From: Elusimicrobiota bacterium | GTDB lineage: Bacteria > Elusimicrobiota > UBA8919 | DNA: 64,000 nt | Direction of reading: 5' to 3' | Assembly: GCA_028718185.1 (NCBI GenBank) | Contig: JAQUMH010000002.1 | Coordinates: forward strand, 192,088 to 256,087 | Part shown: positions 8,468 to 63,112 of the stretch, in pieces | Numbering within the stretch: the first letter of the stretch is position 1 | Layout: each line of letters opens with the position of its first letter | Notes under the pieces: model-generated | Databases searched by the model: none | What the model was told of the DNA's origin: nothing | What the model saw: the letters and a program-made list of their open reading frames with translations, nothing else | Made by a program: the position numbers and the translations under genes

Positions 8468-8589
8468 GTTTGTCGTAGTATTTTACCGTTATTTTAACAA
8501 CGTATATTCTACATCTTTTATTGTTATTATCTTTATTAGCACAATTTTTTCCTATTATTTTCTTTAGTTGATTAGAAATTCAGTAATTT

Positions 8590-10119
8590 TCATATATTCC
8601 TATCTAATGAGCGATATTGGATTGCTTCAGCTATTTGCTGGGTTTCTATTGTTTCGGAACCGGTTAAATCAGCGATAGTTCTTGCAACTTTCAGGATTCT
8701 ATCATGTGCACGGGCAGAGAAACCAAGTTTATCCATTGCATGCTTCAGGAGTTTTTTGCTGTCTGCGCTAATTTCGCAATATGTCTTGATGTGTTTTGAT
8801 TCCATATGTGCATTACTATAAATGTTCTTCTCTTCTTTAAATCTTTTCTTCTGAATATCCCTTGCCTTTATAATCCTTTTTCTTATATCTACCGACGAAT
8901 CTACAACCGTCGTATCAGAAAGTTCCTCAAACCTTACAGCAGGTACTTCTATATGCAAGTCAATCCTATCTAATAAAGGTCCGGATATTTTAGAAACATA
9001 TTTTTGTATAACAAACGGGGTACAGGTACACTCTTTGGTCGGATGACCGTAATACCCGCAAGGACAAGGATTCATAGCGGCAACGAGCATAAATCTCGCG
9101 GGGTACGATAGCGATGCCTGTGCTCGTGAAACAGTAACAACACCGTCTTCAAGCGGTTGTCTTAAAACTTCTAGAACGTTTCTATGAAACTCCGGTAGTT
9201 CATCTAAAAATAAAATACCGTTATGTGAAAGAGAGACTTCGCCCGGGCGAGGGAATGAACCTCCGCCAATCAATGCTACATCTGAAATTGTATGATGTGG
9301 TGAACGAAAAGGACGAATTGCTATCAATGAAGTGTTTTTAGAAACAAGTCCTGTTATTGAATGAATTTTGGTGGTTTCAATTGCTTCTTCAAAAGACATC
9401 GGAGGTAAAATTGTCGGAATTCTTTTTGCAAGCATTGTCTTACCGCTTCCGGGAGAACCAATCAAAAGTATATTATGAGCGCCTGCACAGGCAATTTCAA
9501 TCGCTCTTTTGACAAAAGCCTGAGCTTTTACGTCTTTAAAATCAACGTCACAATGTGAAGATGCAGAAAAAAGTTTAATTAAATCAATTTTATAAGAAAC
9601 AGGCGGTGTTGAAGACGAAATTATTTCTAATGCTTCCTTTAAATTTTCGGCAGGATAAACGTTGAAATCGTTAACAATCGCTGCTTCATTTTTATTTGCT
9701 TCAGGCAGAATCAAACCGTCATATTTTTCTTCTTTAAGTTTTATCGCTATCGGAAGAACACCATTGACTCTCCTGATTGAACCGTTCAATGAAAGTTCCC
9801 CGATAAGCGAATATTTTTTATCATTAACAATGGTTATCTGTTTTGTTGCAACAAGTATCCCGACTGCTATAGGTAAATCAAAAATTGCACCCTCTTTTTT
9901 TATTCCGGCAGGCGCAAGATTAACTGTAACTTTTTTTGTTGGAAAATCAAAACCGGAATTCTTTATTGCAGAAATCACCCGGTCTCTTGACTCTTTTACG
10001 GTAGTATCAGGTAACCCGACAATAGAAAAGGTAGGAAAACCGCTCGATATATCTACTTCAACCGTAACAATATAGCCATTTATACCATAAACAGATGCCG
10101 AATTAACCTGAGAAAGCAT
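8590..10119 (-). CDS. comM: ComM/YifB-family Mg-chelatase-like AAA+ ATPase
   Basis: ComM is a hexameric helicase that drives branch migration during uptake recombination in natural transformation. The N-terminal half (1-185) is the LonC/S5-like domain ([32 protein letters not shown]). The AAA+ core follows with Walker A GSPGSGKT (about 221-228), Walker [11 protein letters not shown], a cysteine cluster [15 protein letters not shown] and [15 protein letters not shown]. It ends with the Mg-chelatase C-terminal helices. The ATG at 10119 (MLSQV) is preferred because AAGGAG lies 8 nt upstream; a GTG at 10128 overlaps that site. It lies in the common rnhB-yraN-comM neighbourhood. Its 3' half is duplicated at 1952-2818. 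Confidence 0.95.
8593..9456 (-). repeat. Direct repeat copy 2 (inside intact comM)
   Basis: It is the partner of 1955-2818. RecA-type recombination between the two copies would delete 6,638 bp carrying the envelope module and leave one comM. Confidence 0.92.
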
Positions 10120-18155: not shown

Positions 18156-18182
18156 GTAGACCCTGAACATAGTTCAGGGTGA
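18156..18182 (+). repeat. REP-like singlet: GTAG plus hairpin
   Basis: GTAG (18156-18159) is followed directly by an ACCCTGAA/TTCAGGGT hairpin (18160-18180). It lies between priA and def. The GTAG-stem layout matches the other elements of this window. Confidence 0.6.
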
Positions 18183-21865: not shown

Positions 21866-21913
21866 TCCCCCTCATCTTTTTTCTTTTCCCCAATGGGGAG
21901 AAGAAAGAGAGAA
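21866..21913. repeat. CCCCTCATC hairpin repeat, copy 1
   Basis: CCCCTCATC followed by a pyrimidine run pairs with a purine run through TTCCCC/GGGGAG. This is the most decayed copy of the family seen at 31407, 41306 and 53075. Confidence 0.6.
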
Positions 21914-30204: not shown

Positions 30205-30229
30205 TTGCTTGCCGAGGGCAAGCAACTAC
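30205..30229 (-). repeat. REP-like singlet: GTAG plus hairpin
   Basis: On the minus strand GTAG (30226-30229) is followed by a TTGCTTGCC/GGCAAGCAA hairpin (30205-30225). Confidence 0.6.
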
Positions 30230-31406: not shown

Positions 31407-31459
31407 TCCCCCTCATCTTTCATCTTCTCCCCTTTGGGGAGAAGAAAGAGTTGAGGGGT
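31407..31459. repeat. CCCCTCATC hairpin repeat, copy 2 (best conserved)
   Basis: CCCCTCATC/TTGAGGGG outer arms and CTTCTCCCC/GGGGAGAAG inner arms form a hairpin of about 50 nt. It lies between ychF and the upstream ligase gene. Confidence 0.75.
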
Positions 31460-51896: not shown

Positions 51897-51930
51897 AAGT
51901 TAGGCACGCCAAGGGCGTGCTACTACAATT
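51897..51930 (-). repeat. REP-like singlet: GTAG plus hairpin
   Basis: On the minus strand GTAG (51923-51926) precedes a GCACGCC/GGCGTGC hairpin (51904-51920) and ends in gcctaact, the same tail as the REPIN copies. Confidence 0.65.
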
Positions 51931-53074: not shown

Positions 53075-53127
53075 CCCCCTCATCTTTCATCTTCTCCCCC
53101 GAGGGGAGAAGAAAGAATTTAAGGGAG
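53075..53127. repeat. CCCCTCATC hairpin repeat, copy 4
   Basis: Same hairpin family as 31407, here between the isomerase-like gene and the dehydrogenase, ending about 35 nt before the dehydrogenase start. Confidence 0.72.
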
Positions 53128-54262: not shown

Positions 54263-54285
54263 TGTCTCCTCCCATTTTTTACTTC

Positions 54286-54375
54286 AAGTTAGGCCCTCCA
54301 CTGAATCGTTGGCGGGCAGCTACAAACCAATTGATATTGTAGCCGCAGAACGTTAGCTCTGCTATACATTGAAAT
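54286..54375. repeat. REPIN-like doublet, copy 1
   Basis: CTAC (54320-54323) and GTAG (54339-54342) point outward from a 15-nt centre. The right hairpin is GCAGAAC/GCTCTGC (54345-54362, one mismatch). The left hairpin is a longer GCCC-CCA/TGG-GGGC variant. It lies inside the carbohydrate operon. Confidence 0.7.
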
Positions 54376-54393
54376 CCGCATACTTTTAATTAT

Positions 54394-55065
54394 TCAAAAT
54401 AACTTGCTATTTTTTTGTCCGTATACTTCGTGATATCTTCTATACCATTTTTTTATTTCACTTCCAGGTAATACGTTCGGCTTGCCTAAAAGTAATGTTA
54501 AATGGCAGGTCTTTGCTATATCTTCAACCATTACAGCAGCTTTAAGTGCAGAAGTGGCTGTAGTACCAAATGCAAATACTCCATGGCTTTTAACTAATAC
54601 TGCCTGAACTCTTGAATTTCCTAATGTTTCGACTACGGCTTCTCCTACTTCTTCTAACGGAAACGGAGATGCATACCTTGTAATTGGAACCACCTCGCCA
54701 AATTCATCAGCGTGAGCAGTAAGGTAGACAGGTATTGGTTTTCCCAACAATGCGAAACTTGTTGCATATGAAGAATGAGTGTGAACTACACCGCATAAAT
54801 CCTTACGGTTACGGTAAATAACTAAATGTGATATTGTATCAACTGACGGGCTAAGTTTTCCTTCTATAACTTTTCCGGATAAATCTACTATAACCATTTT
54901 TGCAGGACTAAGTTCATCATAATTTATCCCGCTGGGTTTAATTACAATATAACCTGTTTTAATATCTCTGCCACTTACATTCCCACTGGTCATCGTAACC
55001 AGATGGTTTTTAGGAAGTTCTAAATTCATTCTATATACTTCTTCTCTAAGTTTTTTCAATAACAT
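54394..55065 (-). CDS. Class II aldolase/epimerase (AraD/FucA-like)
   Basis: Zn-dependent enzymes of this fold are L-ribulose-5-phosphate 4-epimerases or L-fuculose-phosphate aldolases. SGNVSGRD, IKPSGINYDEL, VVHTHSSYATSFA (zinc His pair), AHADEFGEVVP and VKSHGVFAFG (third His) are visible. HADEFG is closer to the AraD pattern than to FucA. At 223 residues it is complete. It is in the sugar operon, so a 4-epimerisation or aldol cleavage of a phosphosugar is likely. Confidence 0.85.
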   Translation of the reverse strand: MLLKKLREEVYRMNLELPKNHLVTMTSGNVSGRDIKTGYIVIKPSGINYDELSPAKMVIVDLSGKVIEGKLSPSVDTISHLVIYRNRKDLCGVVHTHSSYATSFALLGKPIPVYLTAHADEFGEVVPITRYASPFPLEEVGEAVVETLGNSRVQAVLVKSHGVFAFGTTATSALKAAVMVEDIAKTCHLTLLLGKPNVLPGSEIKKWYRRYHEVYGQKNSKLF

Positions 55066-55100
55066 ATTTTCCCCATTAAGTTCAACTACAAACCAATTAA

Positions 55101-55874
55101 TTATCTACCTAATAATTTATGCACTTTTTCCGATATCCGGTTGACAATTGCATCAACACCTTTTTTGCCATACTTTACACTTGCATATTTCCTTGGGTCT
55201 CTACCATGCACTCCGATAAGTTTTACATTCAAGTCCTTTGGTAACCTCGTCATATCAACCAAATCGGGTCTTAAGTACATCATTAAACTTGTTTCCCATG
55301 CAGCAGCATGGTCACCGGCTGACGGGATTACATCTCTTACTAATTCATACCCGGAACAAGGCCATGCCTTTCTGTAATCAAGATTAAAAAGTTCACAAGC
55401 AGCTCTTGCATGATATAGCAGCGGATAGTGTCCTGATAAAACAATAATAACTTCAAACCCAAGACTATGAATTTCAACCATAATATGATGTAACAATTTC
55501 ACATAGTCAAAATTAGCCTGAAAACCTTGCTCCTGCATATACCCGGGTGAAAAATTACTTTTAGGTAGTTCCATCTTATTAGCAATTTGTCCATCTTCAT
55601 CCTGGTCCGCTTCCATAAGATAATGTTCCCGTGGTTCACCATAGAAAAGAGATGGAAAAACTACTCCACCTATTCTTTTGGCGCATTCCATAGCAATTGC
55701 GTGAACCTTGACGGTATCTAATCCGAGACAGTTCTGTTCGCCATGCCACTCAATCCCACCGATTGGTAGATAGGCAACCGGGAATGCCTTACGGGATTTT
55801 ACTGCTTCCCAAGGTAACATCTCCTCATATCGTACTTTTTTAATCAGAATTGATTTTTTTATTTTTTTATCCAT
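55101..55874 (-). CDS. Creatininase-family amidohydrolase-like protein
   Basis: Members hydrolyse amide or lactam bonds with a two-metal site. The pattern LPIGGIEWHGEQNCLGLDTVK supplies the Glu, His and Asp ligands; VLSGHYPLLYHARAACEL and HAAAWETSLMMYLRPDLVDM give the remaining His and Glu. Length 257 is normal. Similar proteins recur in carbohydrate operons with Gfo/Idh and TIM-barrel isomerases. The substrate is unknown. Confidence 0.85.
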   Translation of the reverse strand: MDKKIKKSILIKKVRYEEMLPWEAVKSRKAFPVAYLPIGGIEWHGEQNCLGLDTVKVHAIAMECAKRIGGVVFPSLFYGEPREHYLMEADQDEDGQIANKMELPKSNFSPGYMQEQGFQANFDYVKLLHHIMVEIHSLGFEVIIVLSGHYPLLYHARAACELFNLDYRKAWPCSGYELVRDVIPSAGDHAAAWETSLMMYLRPDLVDMTRLPKDLNVKLIGVHGRDPRKYASVKYGKKGVDAIVNRISEKVHKLLGR

Positions 55875-55892
55875 TTTATTATACTTTCATAC

Positions 55893-55974
55893 AAGTTAAG
55901 CAAAGCTTCGCTTTGCAGCTACAAATCAATCGATATTGTAGCCGCAGAGCGTTAGCTCTGCTAAACATTGAAAT
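55893..55974. repeat. REPIN-like doublet, copy 2
   Basis: Left hairpin GCAAAGC/GCTTTGC (55900-55916) with CTAC (55919-55922); 15-nt centre; GTAG (55938-55941) with right hairpin GCAGAGC/GCTCTGC (55944-55961). Confidence 0.78.
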
Positions 55975-56041
55975 TTCTATACATCAAGTTAATACCGACT
56001 AAGGTCGCCGAAGTAGGTTTTATAAGAGACAATCACATCTA

Positions 56042-57091
56042 TCACTTCTTTGTTAGCAGTTTGATATATGATTCGGCAACTTCCAAATCCTTTAATCCGT
56101 CTTCAGCCGTAGAAATGCATTCCCGTTTTCCTTGTATTGTTTCCACAAAGATACGGGCTTGTTCTAACATACACCAGCGAGGTGAAAAAACAGGGTTTTT
56201 ATAATATTCCCCTGAGCTATTATTAATATATATTTCTACCTTGCCGCTATGTTGCCGTGCCAGCGGCGCCGGTAGCGATAACTTAATATAACCTTTTTCA
56301 AAAAATGCAGTATAAAATTCGTGCCACTCTTTTTTAAGGTTATAAGTATTCATTTCAAGAACAATAGGTTTTCCTGAATCAGTCTCCCCTACCAGCAGCC
56401 TGCCTGAAGACTCTGCGTATTTTACGCTGTAGTCCTCTTTTAACAAATACCTGATTAAATTTATCTGGTGAATATAATAATTTACAAAATCTACATATTT
56501 TTCACCGGTTTTTTTGTCCATCCAGGAAGGAACTGATTCCTGTTCCTGAGCCGGTGATTGGTCAGCATCATTTGCAGATATTGGGTCTTCAATCCCAAAC
56601 ATCCAATTGCCCGGGGGCATACTTGCTCTTAAATAACTAAATTCACCTAATTCACCGGACTTCTTCCATTCTTCAATTGTCTTTTTCATATAAATGCTGG
56701 CAGGGTCGCATCTTTTCATAAAACCAACATGATAAACTATATCTTTTTGTTTCGCTTTCTGAACTAAATTTTTCCCATTTTCTGCGTTTACACACAATGG
56801 TTTTTCTGTCAGTATATTCAGCCCGGCATCAATAACATCAGGGACCACAACATTATGAAACCCGAAGTTCATTATCGCCACAACTCCGTCTAATTTTTCA
56901 TTTTTAAGCATCTCTTTATGATTTGAATAAACCTTTTTAATACCATAACGGGAGGCAACGAGTTCAGCAGTTTTCTCCCTGCCTTCAGCAAGAGCAGTCA
57001 TCTCCACATCAGGCAATAATGCATAGTTTGAAATATGAGCCAGTTGCCCCATAAATCCGGAACCGATAAACCCAATTTTTACTTTAGACAT
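56042..57091 (-). CDS. Gfo/Idh/MocA-family oxidoreductase
   Basis: The NAD(P)-binding fold starts KIGFIGSGFMGQLAHISNYALL, and the family EKP motif is in LNILTEKPLCVNAE. The C-terminal substrate domain includes YVDFVNYYIHQINLIRYLL. It oxidises a sugar or inositol-like compound, possibly assisting non-hydrolytic glycoside chemistry. It lies directly after the GH4 gene (16 nt) in the same operon. Length 349 is normal. Confidence 0.9.
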   Translation of the reverse strand: MSKVKIGFIGSGFMGQLAHISNYALLPDVEMTALAEGREKTAELVASRYGIKKVYSNHKEMLKNEKLDGVVAIMNFGFHNVVVPDVIDAGLNILTEKPLCVNAENGKNLVQKAKQKDIVYHVGFMKRCDPASIYMKKTIEEWKKSGELGEFSYLRASMPPGNWMFGIEDPISANDADQSPAQEQESVPSWMDKKTGEKYVDFVNYYIHQINLIRYLLKEDYSVKYAESSGRLLVGETDSGKPIVLEMNTYNLKKEWHEFYTAFFEKGYIKLSLPAPLARQHSGKVEIYINNSSGEYYKNPVFSPRWCMLEQARIFVETIQGKRECISTAEDGLKDLEVAESYIKLLTKK

Positions 57092-57107
57092 ATTTCCTCC
57101 GTTTTAC

Positions 57108-58538
57108 TTATTTCTTTTGTTCAACTAATTTGCCGAACCTATGGACAACTGCAAGTGCCGGGTCCAAAGGTACATCAACTCCTTTCGTTCCTTTTGGAGT
57201 ATTAATAATTGGTTTTGACTGTAACTTCTTCCCTGCAAATTGCGGCAACCATTCTTTTTCTGCTTCAAACATATCACTCACCATTTCACGTGCTTCATAA
57301 AGAGTACAAACTGCGCTTGTAAGCGGGTCCATTGCCACTGACTGCATTGCATATTCCGGGTTGCCGGTCAATGCCGATTCAGCTGCTAATGCCTGCACAC
57401 CGATATTGCTTTGATTCAAAACTGCACACTGCAGAGGCAGTTCTCCAACGCGGACTGGATGAAGTCCTCTACTGTCAACAAATATCGGCACTTCAACACA
57501 ACAACCCTGCGGTAAATTTGTAATATACCCGTCATTCCTAATATTACCGTTGAGACGAAAAATATTGTCCGTTTCCATTGCCTCAATAATATAAGAACAA
57601 TACTCTATACTCCTTCCTTTAATTTGTGTTGATTCAAACGACAGTTGGTCTATTTTGGCATATTTTTCGGCAATCATACTGCACCATTTATAATATGCAC
57701 CTGTTTCCCCGCCAAAACTCGGCTGGTCACAATACAGGTCGAGCGCCTTCTTGTTCTTACGAAACCAGGGAATATATTCCGAAAGATGGCCGGTACTTTC
57801 TGTCATAAAATAACCAAAATGCCTCATAACTTCACACCGTACTTTTTCGTTAATATAATATTCCGGTTTCTCAATATTCCTACTAAGTATGGGATAAAGG
57901 TCTTTCCCGTCTTTTTTATCTTTGAGAGAAAGAAACCAAGCCATATGGTTAATTCCCGCACAGAAATAGTCAATCCTGTCCTTTGGAACATCTACATACC
58001 TGCTGATTAAATCAAGTGTGGTTTGTACACCATGACAAAGTCCTATAAAATTTATTTTGGTCGCTTTGCCAAGTGCGAAACAATTAGCTGCCATCGGATT
58101 GGCATAGTTCACCATCAATGCATCTGGGCATACTTCTTCCATATCTTTGGCTATATCAATCAATACCGGTATAGTCCGTAACGCTCTAAATATCCCGCCG
58201 GGTCCAAGTGAATCTCCTATGCACTGGTCTACTCCATATTTTAAAGGAATTTCATAATCCATTTTGAAAGCATCTACGCCGCCAACCTGTATCATTACAA
58301 TAACATAATCGGCTCCCGCTAACGCCTTTTTCCGGTCAAGTGTGGCGACTACCTTTGTAGGCAGTTTGTTGTCTTTTACCATCCTGTCAGCAAAACTTTT
58401 TATCTGGTCAAGTTTAGGTTTCGTCCTGTTCATCAACCATATTTCACTGTCCTGTAAAGCCGGAGTCGCTAAAATATCCTTCATTAATGTCTGACAAAAA
58501 ACAATGCTTCCTGCCCCTATAAACGCTATCTTCGCCAT
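57108..58538 (-). CDS. Family 4 glycoside hydrolase (alpha-galactosidase/alpha-glucuronidase type)
   Basis: GH4 enzymes use NAD and a metal to cleave glycosides by a redox mechanism. KIAFIGAGSIVFCQTLMKDI is the NAD loop, and GVDQCIGDSLGPGGIFRALRTIPVL is typical of MelA-like members. The metal-ligand CHG is in NFIGLCHGVQTT and the second His in GINHMAWF. The enzyme is cytosolic. A TTG at 58544 would add two residues; AGGAGG supports ATG at 58538. The substrate sugar is not determined, since GH4 covers several. Confidence 0.93.
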   Translation of the reverse strand: MAKIAFIGAGSIVFCQTLMKDILATPALQDSEIWLMNRTKPKLDQIKSFADRMVKDNKLPTKVVATLDRKKALAGADYVIVMIQVGGVDAFKMDYEIPLKYGVDQCIGDSLGPGGIFRALRTIPVLIDIAKDMEEVCPDALMVNYANPMAANCFALGKATKINFIGLCHGVQTTLDLISRYVDVPKDRIDYFCAGINHMAWFLSLKDKKDGKDLYPILSRNIEKPEYYINEKVRCEVMRHFGYFMTESTGHLSEYIPWFRKNKKALDLYCDQPSFGGETGAYYKWCSMIAEKYAKIDQLSFESTQIKGRSIEYCSYIIEAMETDNIFRLNGNIRNDGYITNLPQGCCVEVPIFVDSRGLHPVRVGELPLQCAVLNQSNIGVQALAAESALTGNPEYAMQSVAMDPLTSAVCTLYEAREMVSDMFEAEKEWLPQFAGKKLQSKPIINTPKGTKGVDVPLDPALAVVHRFGKLVEQKK

Positions 58539-58556
58539 AACCAACCTCCTATTTTT

Positions 58557-59648
58557 TTATTTTTCCAATCCCATATTTTCAAATAAATATAAACCATCTT
58601 TACCCGGGGCAACAACATCAAGCCAGCCGTTACCATTTAAATCGGCAATTGCAAAATGAATACCGCAACCGGTGGCATCCGGAACTTTACCGAAATCAAT
58701 AATATTTTTCTCAAACTTTCCGGAATTAATTTTGAAATAATAAATCCCAACAGGATCAGAATCACTTTCGCCGGGATCCTCGCCGCAATGGGCACGATAT
58801 CTTTTACCGGTAACTAATTCCAACTCCCCGTCATTGTCTATATCTGCCATCTGTAAATCGTGATACTGGGATGCGGTGAGGTCAATATCATGTTTTATCC
58901 ATTTTCTTTCACCGTTACTCATCTTTTGCTGCTCCCACCAGTGCAAACCAAAATTATGCGCCTGCCCTACAATTAAATCTGCAATACCGTCATTATTAAC
59001 ATCGTGTACAATTATCGGGATACTAGCGCTGCCCAAATCAAATTCCGGGTGAAATTTCCATTTACCTTTTGCAGGGTCTTCCGGTGCTTCCAACCAGCCA
59101 TTTCTTAAAATAATGTCAGGTCTGCCATTGCCATTTATATCGCCAAATCCTAAACCATGTCCGCTCGGTTGGTCAAAAACTACATACCTGTCAAATTCGC
59201 CGGTACCTTTTCCTTTGGAATCTAATTTTAATTTATAATACGCTAAGGGAGCTTCGGGCGTATTGGGGATAATCTCCTGGTGTCCGTCTTTATCAATATC
59301 AAACAGCCGTGTAGTTTCAATACTCCCGCATTTATATATATCGTGAGTTTTCCATTCTACAGGTTTACCCTTTGGATTTTCCCTCCACTGTAAAGTGGCA
59401 CCCCACCATGCACCCGTAACTATATCCAAAAAACCGTCACCGTTAACATCCATAGGCAAATCTGAAAAATCATTATAATATTCGCCTTCCCGTTTCACAT
59501 CACATATTTTATGTTTCTTCCAATCAGGACCCTCATACCAATTCGCTCCGCATACAATATCTAAAATTCCGTCATTATTAACGTCAAAAACCGAAGCAGC
59601 CTCATATTTAACATTATCTATCAACTTCTTTCTGAATTTTACCGGCAT
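58557..59648 (-). CDS. FG-GAP/VCBS-repeat beta-propeller protein without signal peptide
   Basis: About seven repeats carry the calcium-type D(x)NxDG pattern (FDVNNDGILDIVCG; MDVNGDGFLDIVTG; FDIDKDGHQEII; GDINGNGRPDII; HDVNNDGIADLIVG; ADIDNDGELELVTG; ADLNGNGWLDVVAPG). Proteins of this type are normally exported; here the N-terminus MPVKFRKKLIDNVKYE shows no signal. It is the first gene of the carbohydrate operon, with an AAGGAGG site. It may be a substrate-binding or scaffold protein, but the function is unknown. Confidence 0.85.
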   Translation of the reverse strand: MPVKFRKKLIDNVKYEAASVFDVNNDGILDIVCGANWYEGPDWKKHKICDVKREGEYYNDFSDLPMDVNGDGFLDIVTGAWWGATLQWRENPKGKPVEWKTHDIYKCGSIETTRLFDIDKDGHQEIIPNTPEAPLAYYKLKLDSKGKGTGEFDRYVVFDQPSGHGLGFGDINGNGRPDIILRNGWLEAPEDPAKGKWKFHPEFDLGSASIPIIVHDVNNDGIADLIVGQAHNFGLHWWEQQKMSNGERKWIKHDIDLTASQYHDLQMADIDNDGELELVTGKRYRAHCGEDPGESDSDPVGIYYFKINSGKFEKNIIDFGKVPDATGCGIHFAIADLNGNGWLDVVAPGKDGLYLFENMGLEK

Positions 59649-59680
59649 TTTAATCCTCCTTTATTATTCTTATATTGCTA

Positions 59681-59708
59681 TTGACATATTTTTATTATTT
59701 TATATAAT
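59681..59708 (+). promoter_or_regulatory. Consensus promoter for the AraC-type gene
   Basis: TTGACA (59681-59686), a 16-bp spacer and TATAAT (59703-59708). It faces the operon promoter on the other strand. Confidence 0.8.
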
Positions 59709-59729
59709 GTTTCTGTGCTATCTAACAGT

Positions 59730-59758
59730 AGTATAACGCATAGTGCTAAAAATGTCAA
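59730..59758 (-). promoter_or_regulatory. Consensus promoter for the carbohydrate operon
   Basis: TTGACA (59753-59758), a 17-bp spacer and TATACT (59730-59735). Two GTGCTA copies (59715-59720 and 59743-59748, 28 bp apart, same direction) are possible AraC sites. Confidence 0.8.
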
Positions 59759-59794
59759 TACCTACGATTGCCATTATTTTATCTATAATTGCTT

Positions 59795-60547
59795 ATGAAG
59801 AAAAATAACTCAGAATTACTTTATGTTGGCAGAACCGAACCTTATTCGAAATGGAAAATGCCCAGTCATTCCCATCCTTTTAATGAAATGATTGTTGTTA
59901 TCAACGGAGAGATGTCTGTATTAATCGCAAACCAAAACATAATTGCAAAAGCAGGAGATGTTTTGTTTTATCAAGCCGGTGCGGCACATAAAGAAAAATC
60001 TAATGAAAAAAATCCGGCTGAAACTATTTATTTTGGCTGGAAACAAGATAACAAAGAAAAAATGGAATTCCCTATATTATTACACGATACTAACGGCAGG
60101 ATGAGACTTTTATCAAAATGGCTTTTAGAAGAAAGACAAACTAATTCGAAATATAATATTCAATTTCAGGAATCAATAACCGAAACCATATTAGCAGAAT
60201 ATTCAAGATTAAATAGAACTAATAAAGAAAAATCTGAACTTATCCGGAAAATAAAAGGTTTTATGCGTGATAATTTAAAGGAAAATATTACTCTACAAAA
60301 ATTAGCTGATTTTGCTTACCTGAGTAAATATCATTTTTTACGGAAATATAAAAGTGAATCAGGACGTACACCAATAGAGGATTTAAGTATATTACGTATC
60401 GAAACGGCCAAAGAATTAATCCTGACAACAAACCTGCCGTTAAAATCCATTGCCAAAGAAGTGGGTTTTACTAATGAATATCATTTCAATAGAATATTCC
60501 GCAAATACAGCGGTTTAACTCCCGGACATTTCCGCAAAAACCAATAG
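59795..60547 (+). CDS. AraC-family transcriptional regulator
   Basis: An N-terminal cupin domain (SHSHPFNEMIVVINGEMSVLI, AGDVLFYQAGAAHKE) is followed by the two HTH motifs: TLQKLADFAYLSKYHFLRKYKSESGRTP and LPLKSIAKEVGFTNEYHFNRIFRKYSGLTPGHFR. It most likely senses a sugar and controls the divergent carbohydrate operon and itself. The ATG at 59795 is used; a TTG at 59789 is also in frame. It is the only firm protein gene on the plus strand in the window. Confidence 0.93.
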   Translation: MKKNNSELLYVGRTEPYSKWKMPSHSHPFNEMIVVINGEMSVLIANQNIIAKAGDVLFYQAGAAHKEKSNEKNPAETIYFGWKQDNKEKMEFPILLHDTNGRMRLLSKWLLEERQTNSKYNIQFQESITETILAEYSRLNRTNKEKSELIRKIKGFMRDNLKENITLQKLADFAYLSKYHFLRKYKSESGRTPIEDLSILRIETAKELILTTNLPLKSIAKEVGFTNEYHFNRIFRKYSGLTPGHFRKNQ

Positions 60548-60589
60548 ATGCAACCAAACTTCATTTAATCCGTTTTATAATGATACTTT

Positions 60590-61492
60590 CTAAGAAATAT
60601 CAAGCATTTTTTGGATTACCAAATATGCCTTTTTTCTTATTTTTTCCGGGACTTCTATTTCGTGTTGCTTATTAAGAAGTGATTCGTGCAGCGACTCGAG
60701 GTTGACATATTTCATATTCGGGCAGAACATCCTTCGGGAGGCAGGTATAAATGTTTTGTTTGGGTTTTCCTTTTGAAGACGGTGTAAAATGGCAGTTTCA
60801 GTGCCTATAATAAAGCTATTTGAAGAATCATTTTTAACATATCTGATTATCCCGCTTGTTGAAGTAACCTTATCGGCAAGATTCAGAACATCTTCTCTGC
60901 ATTCAGGATGCGCTACGAATTTTGCATTAGAATATTGTTTTTTTAATTCCAGGACATCCTCAACTTTTAGTGTTTCATGGGTAGGACAAAAACCATTCCA
61001 TATAATTACTTTCTTGTCTGTGTATTTGGAAACATAATTGCCGAGGTTTCTGTCAGGTAAAAATATTACAGTGTCGGATGGAACAGAATTAACAATTTCA
61101 ATAGCATTTGAAGACGTACAACAAATATCACATTCTGCCTTTACATCAGCAGATGTATTTATGTAACAAACAACTGATGCCTTAGGATTTTCATGGCGAA
61201 GTCTTCTAACATCATCTACAGTAATCATATTGGCAAGCGGGCAGCTACTTCTCATATCAGGTAAGAGTACTACTTTTAACGGCGATAATATCTTTGCAGT
61301 TTCAGCCATAAAATGAACACCGCAAAAAACAATAATTTTAGCATCGGTAATTAGAGCATTCCTTGAAAGTTCTAATGAATCACCCACGAAGTCAGCAATA
61401 TCCTGAATTTCAGGTAACTGATAATTATGTGAAAGCACAACCGCTTTTTTTTCAATTTTTAACTGATTTATGTCGTCAATTATATTATCCAT
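60590..61492 (-). CDS. nadA: Quinolinate synthase
   Basis: NadA condenses iminoaspartate with dihydroxyacetone phosphate to quinolinate, using a 4Fe-4S cluster. Motifs: VLSHNYQLPEIQDIADFVGDSLELS, VFCGVHFMAETAKIL (first Cys), DICCTSSNA, GFCPTHETL, VAHPECREDVL and RRMFCPNMKYVNL. The cluster cysteines are all present. Length 300 is normal. It lies about 9 kb from nadB; nadC is not in the window. No ribosome site is obvious. Confidence 0.96.
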   Translation of the reverse strand: MDNIIDDINQLKIEKKAVVLSHNYQLPEIQDIADFVGDSLELSRNALITDAKIIVFCGVHFMAETAKILSPLKVVLLPDMRSSCPLANMITVDDVRRLRHENPKASVVCYINTSADVKAECDICCTSSNAIEIVNSVPSDTVIFLPDRNLGNYVSKYTDKKVIIWNGFCPTHETLKVEDVLELKKQYSNAKFVAHPECREDVLNLADKVTSTSGIIRYVKNDSSNSFIIGTETAILHRLQKENPNKTFIPASRRMFCPNMKYVNLESLHESLLNKQHEIEVPEKIRKKAYLVIQKMLDIS

Positions 61493-61507
61493 TGTTTTGA
61501 AATCGTA

Positions 61508-61894
61508 TTACTGGGTAAAATCCTTTTTGTCAAGCAGTTCTACAACCTTCTTAACAAGTTCTTTGGGTTCAAACGGCTTTATCAAGTAGGCATCACAACC
61601 GAATTGTTCTGCTTGCTGAATATCCCGGGGTTGTGATTTTACGGAGAGCATTAATACCTTTGGATAAGGTTTGAAAACTTCATCTTTTTTTAACCGTCTT
61701 AAAACCTGGAAACCGGTAAAACAAGGCATCATTATATCAAGAACAACGAGATGCGGCTTTTCTCTGCGGCAAACAGAAAACACTTCAGAACCGTCCCTTG
61801 CTATAAAGATTTCATGTCCAAGTGGTGTAAATAAAGCTATAAGAAGTTGTACTATTTCCTCATTATCATCTGCTATGAGAATTTTCTTCTTCAT
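61508..61894 (-). CDS. CheY-like response regulator
   Basis: A single receiver domain: ILIADDNEEIVQLL (acidic pair), the phosphorylation Asp in LVVLDIMMPCFTG, VLMLSVKS and DAYLIKPFEPKEL (Lys). There is no output domain, so it probably acts through a partner. It overlaps the GAF/HD-GYP gene by 4 nt and is co-translated with it. This suggests a two-component or cyclic-di-GMP circuit. Confidence 0.93.
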   Translation of the reverse strand: MKKKILIADDNEEIVQLLIALFTPLGHEIFIARDGSEVFSVCRREKPHLVVLDIMMPCFTGFQVLRRLKKDEVFKPYPKVLMLSVKSQPRDIQQAEQFGCDAYLIKPFEPKELVKKVVELLDKKDFTQ

Positions 61895-62919
61895 AATAAA
61901 TCTAATTTGAGATAAGTATCAACTATTTGAGGGTCGTATTTTATTCCTTTTTGTGATTCAAGAATCTGTTTGATTTTGTCATTTGAAATACCCGAAAAAT
62001 TCATATCTTCTACCGATTCAACTAAAGATATTATCCTTGAACCGAGAGGTATTTGCTCTTTTTTTAAGCTTTCAGGGAAACCGGAACCATCATACATCAG
62101 GTGGTGATATTTTATAAGTTCCGCAGCATTTTTTAAAAGGTTTATATTTTTAACCATTTCAAAACCTCTTATAGGATGACTTTTATTTGTTGCATGGTCC
62201 ATTATAGAATATTCAGGAATATTAACAAAACCAACATCATGTAAAATTGCAGCGTAATAAATATCTTTGTAATTGGAACCGGAAATATCGAGTTCTTTGG
62301 CTATTGCAGTTGAAAGTTGCGCTACCTTAAACGAATGTCCTGAAAGCCGTTTGTCTTTTGACTCAAACGCAGTTGTAAGTATCTCGAAAATATTTGCAAA
62401 AAAGTTCTGCTGGTCAGAAATATTTCTTGCATTTAATATTGCAACAGCAGCAAAACCCGATAAACTAATTAAAATTGTTTTATCGTCTTCTGTAAACTGG
62501 GAACCATCTACTTTATTAAGTACTTCCGCAACTCCGATAAGTTCATTGTTTACAATCAGTGGAACACAAAGTATTGATTTTGTTTGAAAGCCGGATTCAG
62601 AATCAATTTTTCCAGTAAAACGCGCGTCAGTTTTTACATCCTGAATAATCAGCGGCTCTTTATTTTTGGCAACCCAGCCTGCAACACCCTCACCAACGGG
62701 AACTTTAAGCTTAGTTAATATCGTACCTTTATCACCACTGGCAACTTTAAAATAAAGACTTTTTTTATCATCGTCCAAAATCATAATTGAGGATGCCATT
62801 GTATTGGTTAGTCTCTCAGCAGCAGTACCTATTTTTTTTAAAACTGAATCAACATCAAATGTGGATGTTATGGTTCTCACAATATCAAAAAATTCAGCAA
62901 AATTTGAGTTTTTTTCCAT
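61891..62919 (-). CDS. GAF domain plus HD-GYP phosphodiesterase
   Basis: Residues about 20-160 are a GAF domain (SSIMILDDDKKSLYF; SILCVPLIVNNELIGVAEVLNK). From about 190 an HD-GYP domain follows: HSFKVAQLSTAIA, YYAAILHDVGFVNIPE (HD) and IKYHHLMYDGSGFPESL, where the GYP motif reads GFP. HD-GYP proteins hydrolyse cyclic-di-GMP. A good AGGAG site is present. It lies upstream of the receiver gene. Confidence 0.9.
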   Translation of the reverse strand: MEKNSNFAEFFDIVRTITSTFDVDSVLKKIGTAAERLTNTMASSIMILDDDKKSLYFKVASGDKGTILTKLKVPVGEGVAGWVAKNKEPLIIQDVKTDARFTGKIDSESGFQTKSILCVPLIVNNELIGVAEVLNKVDGSQFTEDDKTILISLSGFAAVAILNARNISDQQNFFANIFEILTTAFESKDKRLSGHSFKVAQLSTAIAKELDISGSNYKDIYYAAILHDVGFVNIPEYSIMDHATNKSHPIRGFEMVKNINLLKNAAELIKYHHLMYDGSGFPESLKKEQIPLGSRIISLVESVEDMNFSGISNDKIKQILESQKGIKYDPQIVDTYLKLDLL

Positions 62920-62980
62920 AAATAACTCCTGTAATATATCGTTTTCTTATTATTCTTTTAAAAACTAAACTTTACTTAAC

Positions 62981-63064
62981 AAGTTAGGCAAAGCTTCGCT
63001 TTGCAGCTACAAACCAATTGATATTGTAGCCGCAGAGCGTTAGCTCTGCTAAATATCGAAATTC
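62981..63064. repeat. REPIN-like doublet, copy 3
   Basis: Left hairpin GCAAAGC/GCTTTGC (62988-63004) with CTAC (63007-63010); 15-nt centre; GTAG (63026-63029) with right hairpin GCAGAGC/GCTCTGC (63032-63049). Nearly identical to copy 2. Confidence 0.78.
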
Positions 63065-63112
63065 CTATACACCAAGATAGCAGACGAAGGGTCTCAACCA
63101 CAAAACCACCTT

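Follow-up and report, generated by a model that had tools for sequence, protein, structure and literature searches.

GTAG hairpin doublets in an Elusimicrobiota genome: candidate RAYT-mobilised units with common ends, and hairpins kept inside RAYT genes

Introduction

Three inverted pairs of GTAG-flanked hairpins lie in the stretch of 64,000 nt analysed here (the window; contig JAQUMH010000002.1, positions 192,088-256,087 of the forward strand; Elusimicrobiota bacterium, GCA_028718185.1). An earlier note on this DNA had taken them for REPIN-like elements mobilised by a RAYT transposase. Are they elements of this kind, where does the mobile unit begin and end, and which enzyme would move it? 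RAYT cut sites and the exact mobile piece are still poorly known for REPs. Judged from their sequence, the window elements are probably non-autonomous elements of REP/REPIN type moved by a RAYT, with a unit composed of a leader, one or two hairpins and a trailer. What is new here is the shared ends of the units and the DNA-level conservation of hairpins inside RAYT genes.

GTAG hairpins in the window

All three doublets noted before at 54286, 55893 and 62981 were found, each with the order hairpin-CTAC-15 nt-GTAG-hairpin, and in all three cases the flanking genes lie on one and the same strand. REPIN unit 1 (54285-54384, minus strand) is a degenerate doublet with the trailer CAAGTTA at 54285-54291, CTAC at 54320-54323, a 15-nt centre, GTAG at 54339-54342 and a degenerate leader at 54367-54384; its left stem differs and its right stem is mismatched. 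An AP_endonuc_2 (TIM barrel) gene and an Aldolase_II gene flank this unit, which takes up the greater part of the space that separates them. Unit 2 (55892-55991, minus strand), an intact doublet flanked by Creatininase-family and GFO_IDH_MocA genes, consists of the trailer (55892-55898), a hairpin (55900-55916), CTAC (55919-55922), GTAG (55938-55941), the other hairpin (55944-55961) and the leader (55966-55983), beyond which TCAAGTTA represents the end of a preceding unit. Unit 3 (62980-63079, minus strand) is likewise intact, with the trailer at 62980-62986, a hairpin at 62988-63004, CTAC at 63007, GTAG at 63026, a hairpin ending at 63049, the leader at 63054-63071 and the end motif at 63072-63079. 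The placing of doublets in a sugar operon holds for units 1 and 2, which lie between sugar-metabolism genes, but not for unit 3, whose neighbours are a GAF/HD gene and a T2SSE (type II/IV secretion ATPase) gene. In the copies at 55893 and 62981 both stems (GCAAAGC/GCTTTGC and GCAGAGC/GCTCTGC) pair perfectly over 7 bp, and their folding as single-stranded DNA is far stronger than that of shuffled sequences (z -5.8 and -4.9, respectively).

The singlets described at 18156, 30205 and 51897 proved to be real GTAG hairpins with other stems. The singlet at 51897-51926 (minus strand, GCACGCC stem) carries the same trailer CAAGTTA as the doublets (51897-51903); no leader was recognisable in it. The one at 30205-30229 (minus strand) belongs to the GTAGTTGCTTGCCC family. 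The hairpin at 18156-18180 (plus strand) has an unrelated 9-bp stem (ACCCTGAAC), is the weakest candidate and may not be a family member.

Two further repeats were seen in the window. A second palindromic family, which lacks GTAG, is found at 31423-31445 and 53090-53112, with related sequences at 21866 and 41319; it reads TCTTCTCCCC-NNN-GGGGAGAAGA within a longer conserved context (TCCCCCTCATCTTTCATC...) and is dispersed in the genome (also in L159, L163, L169, L171, L173 and L177). A 300-nt direct repeat links 1938-2237 with 8576-8875 at 92% identity.

Abundance and GTAG specificity

GTAG ranked first among the 256 tetranucleotides for hairpin adjacency in the window (8 hits, where 30 shuffles averaged 0.27), and the core GCTACAA-N-TTGTAGC occurred three times in the window versus 0 in 100 shuffles. 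Genome-wide, too, the observed excess is large. In the 3.03 Mb genome (27 contigs), there are 81 occurrences of the doublet half-site GTAGCYGCAVAGC and none of its reversed control. A BLAST-type search of the genome gave 43 doublet matches, and many doublet copies are 96-99% identical. Strict GTAG hairpins numbered 157 in 864 kb of sampled sequence, compared with 0 to 14 for eight control tetranucleotides; this sample comprises the window and two sets of stretches (800 kb), some of them picked at known matches, so that its densities are biased upward, and the window alone gives 8 GTAG hairpins per 64 kb. Within the sample, 164 of 200 copies are intergenic and 12 inverted REP pairs are spaced by exactly 15 nt.

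Single REPs of several families are densely clustered in L171 (G000 C3:140001-160000), where 28 REPs, including overlapping calls of one element, are listed and GTAG is always on the plus strand. Five in-frame GTAG hairpins lie in the gene of a 2502-aa Kelch/TPR protein (L159:9202-16710, G000 C1).

Shared ends of the units

Read on the GTAG strand, a unit starts with an 18-nt leader (TGTATAGGAATTTCAATG), continues with TTTGTAG and one hairpin in singlets or with two inverted hairpins in doublets, and finishes with a trailer (TAACTTGA), its 3' end reading TAACTTG(A). This constant frame goes beyond what the earlier note described. The leader was found 66 times genome-wide at ≤2 mismatches and the reversed leader 0 times. 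One leader and one trailer are common to several stem families (GCAAAGC, GCACGCC, GCCCGCC, TCACGCC and others), and 33 of 79 leaders directly abut the end of another unit, a head-to-tail joining that produces arrays.

Alignment of 30 isolated units with no upstream hairpin revealed TAaYTTRA as the eight bases 5' of the leader. T-8, A-7, T-4 and T-3 were matched in 20 of these 30 units versus 1.1% of intergenic positions. The same motif is carried by the unit's own 3' end, past which the sequence is unconserved. The fourth position is mostly T in the left motif and mostly C in the right one. Three RAYTs are known to cut at CT (PMC8266576), a dinucleotide that most right-end motifs include and few left ones do. 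Since the left and right motifs differ systematically, a target site plus an element end, as in IS200/IS605 elements, is favoured and a target-site duplication disfavoured. The left motif might also be element-borne, or be inflated by decayed tandem copies among the isolated units. The shared leader and trailer appear to be the ends of the unit.

In 47 of 51 units the leader strand and the local GC skew point the same way. GC skew, if it marks the direction of replication, would make the leader strand the lagging-strand template. Gene direction nearly always coincides with the skew too, and with few genes against the skew this confounds the orientation bias. Throughout the sampled stretches L148-L187 and the window gene orientation tracks GC skew, and most 20-kb stretches have more than 90% of their coding bases on one strand.

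The leader was also considered as a general RAYT signal and rejected as such: among eight relatives it is clearly enriched only in G004 and G006, and at the loci inspected there (one per genome) no GTAG REP lay behind it. As far as seen, the leader is specific to the source lineage.

RAYT genes in the genome

The prediction that a RAYT gene would be found outside the window was borne out. The window holds none, and seven Y1_Tnp genes (PF01797), all above the Pfam cut-off, are located elsewhere in the genome. REP_Tyr_transpos (NF047646) is the best NCBIfam family of all seven, its curated cut-off (80 bits) being passed only by L003. The HxH motif and YYEHIIRNE with the catalytic tyrosine are conserved in the RAYTs. 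One gene, L004 (L156:10646-11074, G000 C1), lies between two genes, identified as glyQ and glyS from their translations, and overlaps each of them by 4 bases. A structure model of its relative L038 (68% identical; from Elusimicrobia genome G005) has a mean pLDDT of 87 and, compared with the PDB, best matches 4er8, the structure of a RAYT in complex with a REP hairpin, with the IS608 and ISDra2 transposases next; 4er8 likewise came first in a sequence-only search with L004.

Flanking of a RAYT gene by the elements had been expected as well. RAYT genes do exist, but the likely cognate L004 contains REPs in frame and is unflanked, GTAG hairpins being otherwise absent for about 1.4 kb around it. 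Flanking REPs are present at L003 and L006 and are of other families. Flanking of RAYT genes by REPs (REPtron) is common in the REP/REPIN family and not universal.

RAYT genes occupy operon junctions, and related RAYTs are located at different loci in different genera. L038:2007-2462 precedes and overlaps an RNA methyltransferase-like gene in the Elusimicrobia relative, and L007:1438-1935 overlaps what reads like the start of a response regulator. G005, of the same family as the source, is 100% identical over 3,348 bases to Elusimicrobia bacterium RIFOXYD2_FULL_34_15.

REPs inside RAYT genes and their conservation

Five of the seven RAYT genes contain in-frame GTAG hairpins (one in L003, two in L004, three in L005, one in L006 and two in L007), and L006 has an additional hairpin pair upstream. 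Eight hairpins in 2.0 kb of RAYT sequence (four genes in the sample), versus 18 in 728 kb of other genes, correspond to a roughly 160-fold density. The stems of the two L004 hairpins, GCAGAGC and GCAAAGC, are those of the window doublets, which makes L004 the likely partner; L004 most likely serves the window family. Dispersed near-copies of the in-gene REPs were detected in the sample for L003, L004, L005 and L006, and none there for L007.

In-frame REPs are typical of TnpA-REP genes of subclass 2.4 (PMC6006769), and their presence as such was therefore rejected as a new discovery. The pattern was reproduced on 80 homologues taken from named genomes across many phyla: 49 had an in-frame REP, versus 2 of 400 shuffled genes. 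These hairpins lie on both strands (frames: forward 30/8/0, reverse 9/15/15) and use all reading frames except the one in which GTAG would contribute an in-frame TAG. Their occurrence on either strand in all permitted frames implies that DNA recurs and not a peptide.

L004-type RAYT genes of four genomes from three genera have kept both hairpins with identical stems, whereas outside the hairpins the genes diverge by 21-27% (two pairs measured). Between L004 and L038, 45 of 47 in-gene REP positions are identical versus 73% for the rest of the gene. For L003 the excess in REP identity over the rest of the gene is weak, some outside windows reaching 21/23, and the in-gene REPs of L007 are no more identical than the rest of that gene. 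In L007-type genes the stems have changed between genera by paired substitutions. Hairpin 2 of the L004-type genes encodes AKLSLCRY in one genus and, in a different frame, GKANALPL in another. The L004-type genes of G002 and G007 are broken. These sequence comparisons support a persistence of in-gene hairpins at the DNA level, irrespective of frame.

Among nine genomes, the stem family is present in 4 of 4 with an L004-type RAYT and in 1 of 5 without. Four of these five have 0 copies; the exception, G006, has 4 copies and no L004-type RAYT, in an assembly that is only 86% complete. Both stem-family copies of G007 are those inside its RAYT gene. The relatives G002 and G005 share the same stems, but there GTAG lies on the outer ends of the doublet. 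At the G002 loci L193 and L195 the GTAG-outside doublet lies within a longer sequence that is itself nearly palindromic, GACTGTGTC...GACACAGTC.

What keeps REPs in RAYT genes can be read in two ways. They are probably passive scars, left by frequent insertion near the place of RAYT synthesis, with only in-frame loop insertions surviving. Both REP-encoded stretches fall into predicted loops of the L038 model, such tolerance has been proposed before (PMC6006769), frames vary freely and other genes contain in-frame REPs too, among them that of the Kelch/TPR protein with its five. The enrichment over other genes, the retention of an identical-stem hairpin pair in four genomes and the paired stem changes in L007-type genes speak against scars, although repeated reinsertion could still account for the kept hairpins and the paired changes. 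A more doubtful reading is that the RAYT gene keeps its substrate hairpin for a function, either self-regulation through its own gene or mRNA or a protected seed that renews the dispersed family. If so, the hairpin would be selected at the DNA or RNA level whatever the frame, and the substrate of a RAYT could be read from its gene. With hairpins intact over genera while the encoded peptide shifts frame, it can be tested whether the in-gene substrate serves any purpose, and whether sequence is enough to recognise cognate RAYT-REP pairs.

The dispersed units themselves could be kept mainly as RNA signals, such as terminators or mRNA-stabilising hairpins between operon genes, their mobility being long past. 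The largely intergenic location of the sampled copies, usually between genes of the same direction with the GTAG strand as the coding strand, and the same-strand neighbours of the window doublets are consistent with this; selection against gene disruption would also leave intergenic copies. We consider an RNA role improbable as the main explanation: it needs no 18-nt leader, no 8-nt motif at each end and no head-to-tail joining, it leaves the in-frame copies within RAYT genes unaccounted for, and the near-identity of many copies suggests recent spread. Far less credible still is an origin as MITEs of an unrelated DDE-type transposase with incidental GTAG hairpins. The 8-nt near-repeats at the unit flanks are readable as target duplications, but they differ systematically between left and right (mostly T versus C at the fourth position) and do not match pairwise. 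Moreover, the unit ends show no visible terminal inverted repeats, and in every hairpin GTAG lies on the side typical of REPs.

A possible route of mobilisation

For REP-type units moved by a RAYT, we infer the movement, the cut positions and the pairing of RAYT and family as follows. A RAYT (TnpA-REP, an HUH Y1 enzyme) would bind GTAG together with the hairpin while the DNA is single-stranded, probably in the lagging-strand template. Its cuts would fall at the two TAAYTTRA motifs, one at each boundary of the unit. The excised unit would be rejoined 3' of another TAAYTTRA motif; a circular form would show a TAACTTGA-TGTATAGG junction. Neither movement nor an empty site nor a circle was seen for these units. 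Since the right end of a unit resembles the target motif, insertion behind an existing unit would also occur and give rise to arrays. The several RAYT paralogues would differ in the hairpins that they prefer and have these ends in common, so that hairpin sequences could diverge between an unchanged leader and trailer. For the window family the most likely enzyme would be the product of the gene between glyQ and glyS, which contains two in-frame REPs of that family. The unit ends suggested here (leader, trailer and TAAYTTRA) are testable with short oligonucleotides.

Comparison with known systems

The units resemble IS200/IS605 elements (IS608, ISDra2) in the hairpin with a 5' guide tetranucleotide, the one-sided target-like left motif, the right-end motif and the orientation bias, a likeness in sequence features, circles and transfer of single-stranded DNA being those of IS200/IS605. 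In contrast to these, the units are geneless and often have a single hairpin.

With the REPINs and RAYTs of Pseudomonas fluorescens SBW25, for which asymmetric excision was reported (PMC3116915), they share inverted GTAG-type hairpin pairs, high copy number, a mainly intergenic location, a RAYT in the same genome and tandem arrays. They differ in having a leader and trailer common to singlets and doublets, GTAG on the inner side of the doublet, and a likely cognate RAYT that contains REPs and is not flanked by them.

Similarly, the GTAG REP superfamily (PMC3733652) has a short stem, GTAG at 0-2 nt from the stem and intergenic plus some intragenic copies. A few of its families have constant flanking tracts, as Anabaena variabilis GTAG-15 does with its TATAGGA/TCCTATA ends (PMC3733652), whereas here several hairpin families are enclosed by one common leader and trailer, and each end of the unit has a defined motif.

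TnpA-REP subclass 2.4 (RAYT group 4; PMC6006769) is alike in the short RAYT, the in-frame in-gene REPs and the variable loops, a likeness short of a formal assignment to 2.4. Unlike in that subclass, REPs are found here also after the first beta strand and at beta3-alphaC, and the GCAGAGC and GCAAAGC families are conserved across genera with differing frames.
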